A stretch of 64,000 nt of DNA, from NCBI RefSeq assembly GCF_000296465.1, contig NZ_JH815203.1, positions 372,001 through 436,000 on the forward strand. The letters run 5' to 3'. Of this stretch, positions 45,681 to 52,619 are shown one piece after another. A program made the position numbers and the translations under genes. Within the stretch, counting starts at the first letter, position 1. The number at the start of each line of letters is the position of its first letter. The notes under the pieces are model-generated. The model worked only from the letters and a program-made list of their open reading frames with translations, made no database searches and was not told the origin of the DNA. Source of the stretch: Barnesiella intestinihominis YIT 11860. GTDB taxonomy: Bacteria > Bacteroidota > Bacteroidia > Bacteroidales > Barnesiellaceae.

Positions 45681-45754
45681 TGACTCCGACAGGATTCAAA
45701 CCTGTAACCTTCTGATCCGTAGTCAGATGCTCTATTCAGTTAAGCTACGGAGCC
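45681..45754 (-). tRNA. tRNA-Arg(ACG)
   Basis: 74 nt. Acceptor stem GGCTCCG/CGGAGTC with one G-U pair, discriminator A. The anticodon loop CTACGGA gives anticodon ACG (read as ICG, decoding CGN codons). T-loop GTTTGAATC-type sequence is present. The 3' CCA is not encoded. It is identical to the upstream copy at 45811-45884. Confidence 0.95.
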
Positions 45755-45810
45755 ATTTCCAAATCTGTTTTTTCATATAGTTGTTCTCGCTTGAACAACC
45801 TTGCATTGAG

Positions 45811-45884
45811 TGACTCCGACAGGATTCAAACCTGTAACCTTCTGATCCGTAGTCAGATGCTCTATTCAGTTAAGCTACGGAGCC
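45811..45884 (-). tRNA. tRNA-Arg(ACG), identical first copy
   Basis: Same 74-nt sequence as the copy at 45681-45754, separated from it by 56 nt. A perfect -7 box TATCTTTG (45903-45896) lies just upstream, so both copies are probably one transcript. Confidence 0.95.
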
Positions 45885-49806: not shown

Positions 49807-49814
49807 TATATTTG
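49807..49814 (+). promoter_or_regulatory. -7 promoter box for the BACON lipoprotein gene
   Basis: TATATTTG on the plus strand, 42 nt before the ATG at 49857. It overlaps the upstream end of the open frame, supporting the downstream start. Confidence 0.6.
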
Positions 49815-49856
49815 CAAAACATAATTAAAAAAATATTTCCCAACAAAAAGGATTCT

Positions 49857-51845
49857 ATGAAATCTTTCATTTACATTTTTACCTTATTTTTTTCAGTAGC
49901 ACTCTTAACAGCCTGTCTTGATCTTTCGGACAAAAATAAAGACGATGAGCCTTATTCAATCGAGTTGGTTAATGATATTGTCGTTCTATCGGCCGATGAG
50001 ACCCAAAAGCCAAACAGTATCGAATTTACTGTATCAGACGATTGGTATATCGCTCCCGAGACTAGCCCGGAGACCGAGTATAAAGGCTCCGACTGGGTAA
50101 CAGTCGACACCGAGCACGGTTCAAAAGGAACACACTCCATCGGGATTATCGCCCAAGCTAATTTCAGCGGTAAAGAAAGAGAGGCTGCATTCAGGCTCAC
50201 CTGTGGCGAAAACAGTTCTCTTATCATTGTAAAACAAAGCACCCGCACTCAAAATGGCACGATACTAGACTTCGCAATTCCCCGGCGCATCATCGCCGAC
50301 TACCAGACCATTGTCTCTTCCAAATCGACCGACTTAATCCAAAAACCTATTGCCTTATACATCAACGATGAAAAATTTGACGTGACTCCCCTCTCCCGCC
50401 AAGAGGGAATTTTTGAGTTGCCGGCATGCCTCAAAGGAGCACACACCATGTATGTGACTATCGGCGAAGAGCAATACCAATTCGGGGAAGTCGAGATATA
50501 CACAAGCGGTGAGCCGATAAGTAATTTCGTCGTAGGTTTTCCGTTCAGCATGGACGTAGACAACATCACAACCCTCGTCACCTGCAATAGTGGCTCTTAC
50601 GACTACTCGTTCGCTTCTGACTCCAACGGCGCAATATCTCTCCCTTTGTTTCGCAACGCCGATGGCCGAGCACTCGGTTTTTGTTCGTTTAGAGACCTCG
50701 AACAAATCTCTTCCCGATACATCTATGGAAGAATTGTATGTGGAACCAACGAAGACGAGATGATCCATTATGACACCACAAACTATACAGCCAGTTTGTG
50801 GAGCAGTTCCTCTCAACAAGTCATTATCGACATCGCCACAGGACTTGTCTATTACATAGACGAACAAGATGTTCTGATACGCATGAATGCTCAGTTCCAA
50901 CAACGCGATGAACGCAGTTTCTATGTATCGAACCTACAACGTTACCAAGAAGATCTTGATTTCAATACACGCATTTATATCATAGAACTGCCTGAGGGAG
51001 ACTTGAATTATTGGAAAGAATTATCCCAACACAACCCCGGACTGTATGTCACCGCTCGTGCTTACAAAACCCAAGTTCCCGATGCCATAGGCATTTGGGG
51101 CAAATGGATAGGCGCAAGTGACGGTTCTATCTACCTCAACGAGAATCAGATCATGAACAAATATGGGAAAATCAAAGAATTTACACCTCCTACCGAAGGG
51201 CAAGCCAAAAGCGAAGTTTTCACTTGTTACGGTTCGGGAATGCTATATCGGTTGCGTTATTTACATTATTGGGAAGATGCCTCGCACATTCACTCGACCC
51301 TCCGTATAGAAACTCCCGAAGGAACCTCAATGTGGGAGACCGACTGGGTAGATCCCGCCCCCGACAATACCACTATGATTTGGTATCCCTACTACAAAGC
51401 CTACCAATATCCCGACAAAACCATATTACTCCCCGGCAACATCGAGAAGGGCAATAGCACTCTCTTTGCCATCACCATTACTCCGACCGGTGGTGTAGAC
51501 TCTTTTGAAGCTACACCTATCGACCGAGAGCAATTCTCTAACATTATAAACCATTGGGATATACAGAAATTCCCCTATTTAAGTAACCACGATTATATCA
51601 TAACCGAGGACAATAAAATTTATCGTCGCAGCATTGTCCCATTCGGCAACGAACAACTCATCTACAATGGCGATGGATATATTCATAATTGCATAAGTTT
51701 CCAAAATGTATGCAGTATGTTCGTGCGCGAAAACGACCAACTTTACCTCATCGACTACGATGCACAAGGGACAGAAAAAAACAAAATCCCCCTTTATGGC
51801 GAAAAGTTTGAAGCAATAGGATACAGAATGTGCCGTTTTAAGTAG
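49857..51845 (+). CDS. BACON-domain surface lipoprotein, unknown function
   Basis: 662 residues from the ATG at 49857 (the frame is open from 49812, inside the promoter). The lipobox LTAC gives Cys20, followed by Asp residues (a possible surface export signal). A BACON-like domain (about 35-135: EFTVSDDWYI ... SIGIIAQANFSGKEREA ... IIVKQ) is typical of Bacteroidota glycan-binding and adhesin-like lipoproteins. The remaining ~520 residues look like beta-propeller-like or mixed beta repeats (FYVSNLQRY, GKWIGASDGSIYL) without a known family. Monocistronic. Confidence 0.75.
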   Translation: MKSFIYIFTLFFSVALLTACLDLSDKNKDDEPYSIELVNDIVVLSADETQKPNSIEFTVSDDWYIAPETSPETEYKGSDWVTVDTEHGSKGTHSIGIIAQANFSGKEREAAFRLTCGENSSLIIVKQSTRTQNGTILDFAIPRRIIADYQTIVSSKSTDLIQKPIALYINDEKFDVTPLSRQEGIFELPACLKGAHTMYVTIGEEQYQFGEVEIYTSGEPISNFVVGFPFSMDVDNITTLVTCNSGSYDYSFASDSNGAISLPLFRNADGRALGFCSFRDLEQISSRYIYGRIVCGTNEDEMIHYDTTNYTASLWSSSSQQVIIDIATGLVYYIDEQDVLIRMNAQFQQRDERSFYVSNLQRYQEDLDFNTRIYIIELPEGDLNYWKELSQHNPGLYVTARAYKTQVPDAIGIWGKWIGASDGSIYLNENQIMNKYGKIKEFTPPTEGQAKSEVFTCYGSGMLYRLRYLHYWEDASHIHSTLRIETPEGTSMWETDWVDPAPDNTTMIWYPYYKAYQYPDKTILLPGNIEKGNSTLFAITITPTGGVDSFEATPIDREQFSNIINHWDIQKFPYLSNHDYIITEDNKIYRRSIVPFGNEQLIYNGDGYIHNCISFQNVCSMFVRENDQLYLIDYDAQGTEKNKIPLYGEKFEAIGYRMCRFK

Positions 51846-51920: not shown

Positions 51921-51952
51921 TTTGGTTAATTCCCGAAAAACCTCCAACTTTG
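51921..51952 (+). promoter_or_regulatory. Promoter upstream of the structured leader
   Basis: -33 TTTG (51921-51924), 20-nt spacer, -7 CAACTTTG (51945-51952, first base off consensus). The predicted transcript would start near 51957-51960 with a leader of about 130 nt. Confidence 0.6.
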
Positions 51953-51956
51953 TCCC

Positions 51957-52075
51957 GATTTTATGGGTTCCCGGTAGCGAAGGAAGCGTCCTAAGCAAGA
52001 GGAACTAACCGCTGAAAATCAGCGGGGTCTGCCGTTTCGGTGCGATACCCTGACGTCAGATTTAGTATGAACCAT
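51957..52075 (+). ncRNA. Candidate structured 5' leader RNA with alternative pairing near the start codon
   Basis: It is GC-richer than both flanks and full of complementary segments. H1: 51966-51971 with 52001-52006. H2: 52009-52015 with 52019-52025, a perfect 7-bp stem and 3-nt loop. H3: 52025-52028 with 52047-52050, enclosing CCG/CGG at 52032-52040. The palindrome TGACGTCA lies at 52051-52058. ATGGGTTC at 51963-51970 can also pair, with one bulged G, with GAACCAT at 52069-52075, 12-18 nt before the ATG at 52087; this competes with H1. It has its own promoter, no terminator and no ORF. The class is unknown to me. Confidence 0.5.
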
Positions 52076-52086
52076 AATACTTCATT

Positions 52087-52578
52087 ATGAAGAAAACAAA
52101 GTCAGTTATTGGTATGCTGGCGTTGGTTTTATTGTTTTCGTCGGCTTTCAATCCGGTAGAAACTGGATTAAAAGAAGGGAAACAAGCTCCGATGTTGAAA
52201 TTAAAAAATTCAGAGGGGGCAGTTACTCTCAGTGAATTAAAAGGCCGATATGTTTTGCTGAATTTCTGGGCCGGATACGATGCTCCGTCTCGTATGGAAA
52301 ATATACGGTTTGCCCGAGAAATAGACAAAAGCGAAATCGAAAACATTAGTCTCGTATCGGTATCGTTCGATACCAGTCGAAAAGTCTTCGAAGAGACGAT
52401 CAAACGAGACGGACTAAACACCGCTACCCAATTCTATGACAAAGACGGTTCTCAATCGGATATATTCGATAACTACCGTCTGAACAAAGGATTCGCCAGT
52501 TATCTGATTTCGCCCGAGGGTGTCATCATCGCCAAAGACCCGGATCCAGAACAATTGACAAAACTTATTCGTCAATAA
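52087..52578 (+). CDS. Cysteine-free thioredoxin-fold (TlpA/AhpC-like) exported protein
   Basis: 163 residues. A signal peptide or N-terminal membrane anchor (about 1-21) precedes a thioredoxin-like fold (about 28-160): EGKQAPMLKLKN, YVLLNFWAGYDAPSR, SFDTSRKVFEE, YLISPEGVIIAKDP. The usual CxxC after FWA is replaced by YDAPS, and there is no Cys in the whole protein, so it cannot be a redox thioredoxin or peroxiredoxin. A binding or chaperone role is possible. It is preceded by the structured leader and followed by a terminator, so monocistronic. Confidence 0.8.
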   Translation: MKKTKSVIGMLALVLLFSSAFNPVETGLKEGKQAPMLKLKNSEGAVTLSELKGRYVLLNFWAGYDAPSRMENIRFAREIDKSEIENISLVSVSFDTSRKVFEETIKRDGLNTATQFYDKDGSQSDIFDNYRLNKGFASYLISPEGVIIAKDPDPEQLTKLIRQ

Positions 52579-52580
52579 TC

Positions 52581-52619
52581 AAAACCTCCGTTATGTAAAT
52601 GAGGCATAACGGAGGTTTT
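52581..52619 (+). terminator. Terminator of the thioredoxin-fold gene
   Basis: A 15-bp perfect stem (52581-52595 with 52605-52619) with a 9-nt loop and a T-rich end, 3 nt after the stop codon. Confidence 0.88.

Follow-up and report, generated by a model that had tools for sequence, protein, structure and literature searches.

A candidate orphan cis-regulatory leader RNA upstream of a cysteine-free thioredoxin-fold gene in the Bacteroidales

Translational riboswitches are structured 5' leaders that adjoin the region of translation initiation. In ribosomal-protein leaders, hairpins that bind a protein stand at a fixed distance from the start codon. In the Bacteroidales, initiation is not of the Shine-Dalgarno type and the post-transcriptional control of single mRNAs is poorly known. 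Orphan cis-regulatory motifs are covarying RNAs that lie immediately 5' of a single gene family (Weinberg 2010, PMC2864571; Fremin and Bhatt 2021, PMC8040213). The window examined here, a 64,000-nucleotide stretch of the Barnesiella intestinihominis genome, contains a leader that invites comparison with all of these.

The structured leader RNA is ∼130 bases long and lies at 51958-52086 on the forward strand, its 5' end being placed from the promoter. The original prediction gave the leader a promoter of its own, and Bacteroidetes-type boxes do precede it on the same strand (51921-51952): a -33 box, TTTG, at 51921-51924 and a -7 box, CAACTTTG, at 51945-51952, which differs from TAnnTTTG by one mismatch. 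The assignment is based on sequence and on conservation within the genus, where promoter identity was 86% among 7 genomes compared with 38% farther upstream. A TAnnTTTG-like box is present upstream of nearly all leaders. From the positions of the two boxes the RNA is expected to start near 51958, with a putative 5' end at 51957-51959.

When the region 51958-52100 was folded alone it reached -43.5 kcal/mol (z = -3.2), and 0/200 dinucleotide shuffles were as stable. In the MFE fold a short outer helix closes three consecutive hairpins, which agrees with the predicted number, and all parts are on the forward strand. The outer helix P1 pairs UUAUGG (51961-51966) with CCAUAA (52072-52077); it was assigned from the MFE fold, is lineage-specific and lacks general support across families. 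Hairpin P2 (51967-52005) has the base GUUCC/GGAAC (51967-51971 and 52001-52005), the top AGGA/UCCU and the apical loop AGCG (51985-51988), and is identified by fold and covariation. The other two hairpins are identified by covariation. P3 (52009-52025) consists of 7 bp capped by an AAA triloop (52016-52018) with an A-U closing pair, and P4 (52027-52061) has the top GGU/ACC, the loop GCGAU (52042-52046) and a 3' end at -26. The conserved tail (52062-52086) runs from there to the start codon, with UUAGU at -25 to -21, AAC at -17 to -15 and A at -11, -10 and -8.

The downstream gene (52087-52578, forward strand) encodes a 163 aa protein with an AhpC-TSA/thioredoxin fold and, as had been noted, no cysteine. 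FWAGYDAPSR replaces CxxC, and most orthologs carry FWAxYDAxSR where WCxxC would stand. A hydrophobic N-terminal segment suggests that the protein is exported. The PDB entry 4fo5 ('thioredoxin-like protein') is an ortholog of the window gene (E 1.3e-53) and matches L029 with E 1.5e-64. The FWAxYDAxSR family, predicted to be exported, is spread across the Bacteroidales; although the structure of one member, 4fo5, has been solved, the literature searched contained no described function for it. An intrinsic terminator (52581-52619, forward strand) follows the gene, and the transcription unit is therefore monocistronic. This was the sole terminator-like site, and none was found between leader and gene. 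Directly upstream on the same strand is a gene for a large BACON-domain protein (49812-51845), and two tandem tRNA genes with identical Rfam scores lie on the minus strand at 45681-45884.

The original prediction could not place the leader in a known riboswitch class, and database searches gave the same answer. The whole window, searched against Rfam 15 at the gathering threshold, yielded two tRNAs and nothing else. The leader region produced only chance matches at E≤10, and 19 related loci had no credible match at E≤0.5. These negative results cover the Bacteroidetes families in Rfam; Bacteroides-2 and GUCCY-hairpin were published without an Rfam model and fall outside the comparison. Some published RNA motifs carry no Rfam model (PMC2864571). 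No paper describing this leader was found in the literature, supplementary lists excepted. The leader is a candidate for a new RNA family; the kind of system is not new.

Covariation was measured with a swap test, in which the duplex energy of native helix halves was compared with that of halves exchanged between clades. Native and swapped energies were -10.3 and -5.7 kcal/mol for P2, and -12.0 and -4.8 kcal/mol for P4. For P3 they were -8.7 and -4.6 kcal/mol, a figure that leans to pairing since the P3 anchor was chosen as a triloop stem; the P2 and P4 figures are free of this bias. For these three hairpins 0/3000 partner derangements reached the native pairing energy. The test is independent of alignment A5, in which both sides change in 13/15 P3/P4 pairs. 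Covariation in A5 was 0.776, compared with 0.285 when shuffled and ≤0.18 with partners slid, though A5 was fitted to the model, which favors it. When P2 was centered on AG[CAU][GA] alone, its first five positions paired at 0.74 versus 0.40 when swapped. When all column pairs were scanned freely, the strongest covariation, isolated single pairs aside, fell in P3, P2 and P4, and no coherent helix with the tail or 5' end emerged. A pseudoknot of the tail or 5' end with the hairpin loops was considered and rejected, as no coherent covarying run was seen. By eye the P2 loop is AGCG or AGAG, the P3 loop is AAA, AAG or GAA, and the P4 loop is GNGA(N) in most core leaders.

Among 7 Barnesiella genomes the mean identity was 94% for the leader and 84% for the coding sequence, so within the genus the leader is kept better than its own gene. 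Flank identity was 38% upstream of the promoter and 36% after the stop codon, and P3 was invariant. The original prediction had named a lack of 5' conservation in close relatives as evidence against itself, and these identities show the opposite. Orthologs in other families are preceded by leaders of like build. A covariance model, R1, comprising P3, P4 and the tail, that is, the 3' half of the leader, matched 26/393 genomes of the order at E≤0.01, with one match per genome, and family-centered searches added more. Beyond the order no match was obtained under strict filters in 296 sampled genomes of the phylum, except in the source genome itself. The matches examined lie directly 5' of orthologs of the cysteine-free thioredoxin-fold gene. 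The sole exception, a weak match at L075, was taken as a false positive, being an AT-rich terminator-like hairpin. The genes that flank the pair vary between families, and the leader and its gene therefore move together as a unit.

In some ortholog lineages (L024, L026, L030, L031, L033 and L034) the upstream hairpins differ, and so the gene can do without the full domain. Four of them, L024, L026, L033 and L034, nevertheless keep a UAGUAUUAACCAAAA- or UUUACCAAA-like tail ahead of the AUG, and this tail may predate the hairpins or be under stronger constraint. In L018 and L031 a hairpin with an AGCG/GGCG loop lies 3' of a P3-like hairpin rather than 5', which looks like a changed hairpin order in these lineages.

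In nearly all leaders the 3' end of P4 is 26 nt from the AUG, and UUAGUnnnnAAC follows it. UUAGU or a variant begins at -25 in 40/44 leaders. In clade-weighted counts A-17 is invariant and A-16, A-11, A-10 and A-8 are each present in ∼90%. A-3 (35%) and A-6 (22%) are not favored. These are the upstream adenines that aid initiation in Bacteroidetes (PMC6847099), so an optimal initiation context does not by itself account for the tail. The tail motif was also tried as a genome-wide element and rejected: there were 3 exact copies in the genome compared with 11 of a reversed control pattern.

Association with one gene, the lack of a terminator ahead of that gene and a constant spacing to the AUG together point to a cis effect on translation initiation, and argue against a stand-alone sRNA or an attenuator. 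We think it reasonably probable, on the comparative sequence evidence, that this is an orphan cis-regulatory mRNA leader controlling translation initiation of its single downstream gene. Transcription would start near 51958, and the RNA would fold into three hairpins in series: P2 (AGCG-type tetraloop), P3 (AAA triloop) and P4 (usually a GNGA loop). P4 would end exactly 26 nt before the AUG, just beyond the expected 30S footprint, and the conserved single-stranded tail, UUAGUnnnnAAC...AA.A, would lead into the start codon. The folded domain and tail may be recognized by a trans-acting protein or ligand, or may dock on the 30S platform, and this event would set the frequency of ribosome starts. 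In Barnesiella part of the initiation region could in addition be masked by P1, an arrangement that most families do not share. The leader has a defined, covarying structure at a fixed spacing from one gene; we infer that it affects translation and that the effect is regulated.

A more specific mechanism was implied by the original prediction, in which GGGTTCC (51965-51971) would pair with either GGAACT (52001-52006) or GAACCAT (52069-52075). All three segments were found in the window. As competitors they fared poorly, as the MFE fold accommodates P1 and the base of P2 at once and the 5'/3' pairing is not conserved. A translational riboswitch would use P2-P4 as the aptamer; on ligand binding the 5' end would change partners, from P2 to the initiation region or back, by way of P1 or GGUUC/GAACC, and so mask or expose the ribosome site. 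We consider this unlikely. The compact multi-hairpin domain with conserved loops is what a riboswitch would have, and a conserved, covarying structured domain is indeed present in the 5' leader. P1 is part of the MFE fold, and strong 5'/3' outer pairing is seen in Barnesiella, two of the four Coprobacter-family leaders (L015 and L016), L028 and L070. It is weak or absent in most other leaders, including f22, f20 and H, and over 10 clades native P1 was not clearly better than swapped (fraction 0.09-0.17). The covariation sought for the three predicted hairpins was present in P2, P3 and P4; that sought for the 51963/52069 pairing was not supported. The GGUUC/GAACC alternative loses the pair C51970-G52069 without compensation in 3/9 genus members, where G52069 is replaced by A or C and its partner C51970 is unchanged. 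Judged from these comparisons, mutually exclusive pairing to the initiation region is not a conserved property. Two further helices, suggestive in the MFE fold or visually in Barnesiella, were unsupported: a start-codon hairpin, CUUCA/UGAAG (∼52080-52092; swap fraction 0.45), and an ACUAA/UUAGU helix around P3-P4 (swap fraction 0.43). With a single associated gene there is also no pathway hint to a ligand.

A serious rival, if a less probable one than regulated initiation, is a constitutive 5' structure, whose hairpins would shield the transcript from decay or serve as a standby or enhancer element without regulation in these non-Shine-Dalgarno bacteria. The stems vary and only loops and spacing are kept, and a tail without A-3 and A-6 could be compensated by an extra element (PMC6847099). 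A constitutive enhancing or mRNA-stabilizing role would leave much the same conservation. It explains less well why the apical loops and single-stranded tail are conserved beyond the needs of mere stability, and why the leader is better conserved than the protein-coding sequence. Release of the leader as a 5'-UTR-derived sRNA acting in trans is considerably harder to credit. Such sRNAs have been described in B. thetaiotaomicron (PMC7366714), and the leader has its own promoter and a stable fold, but it has no terminator before the gene, its spacing to the AUG is fixed and, the dubious L075 aside, it never occurred without the gene among the matches examined. Leader-peptide attenuation is the least credible. 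Short AUG frames exist in some leaders, one of them 42 codons long in L008, but no short ORF keeps its sequence, length or position, even between members of the genus, and there is neither a terminator nor an antiterminator. L008 shares its locus region with L045, Barnesiella sp. An22, and its leader is a single open frame that begins at the 5' AUG and closes with a UGA that overlaps the main start codon; in other members of the genus the frame stops after four codons, and the open frame in L008 is probably due to chance.

Regulated initiation in cis remains the reading we prefer. Kept across several families of gut bacteria, the leader probably controls how much of the thioredoxin-like protein is made. 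It occurs in several families with one match per genome and a defined fold, and its predicted loops and fixed spacing can be targeted by mutation. It also draws attention to a conserved, uncharacterized and predicted exported protein that retains the thioredoxin fold but no longer has its cysteines. A bolder proposal, which we put forward tentatively and regard as doubtful, is a new Bacteroidales class of riboswitch or protein operator, through which an envelope-related signal would control the exported, cysteine-free thioredoxin-like protein from just outside the 30S footprint, in bacteria that initiate without Shine-Dalgarno pairing.

Like a translational riboswitch, this leader is structured and adjoins the initiation region. 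It differs in that its candidate switch pairing is not conserved and it serves a single gene. Protein-binding hairpins at a fixed distance from the start codon, as in ribosomal-protein leaders, would look alike. The product here, however, is not an RNA-binding ribosomal protein but an AhpC-TSA/thioredoxin-like ortholog of 4fo5. Direct autoregulation of its own mRNA by this product is unlikely, because the protein has an N-terminal hydrophobic segment, looks exported and has a thioredoxin fold. The orphan cis-regulatory motifs and this leader are each found in one bacterial order and have no known ligand, the leader having in addition no Rfam match. Both are covarying RNAs that immediately precede members of one gene family, and the leader is best filed as a new orphan cis-regulatory RNA family rather than as a riboswitch.
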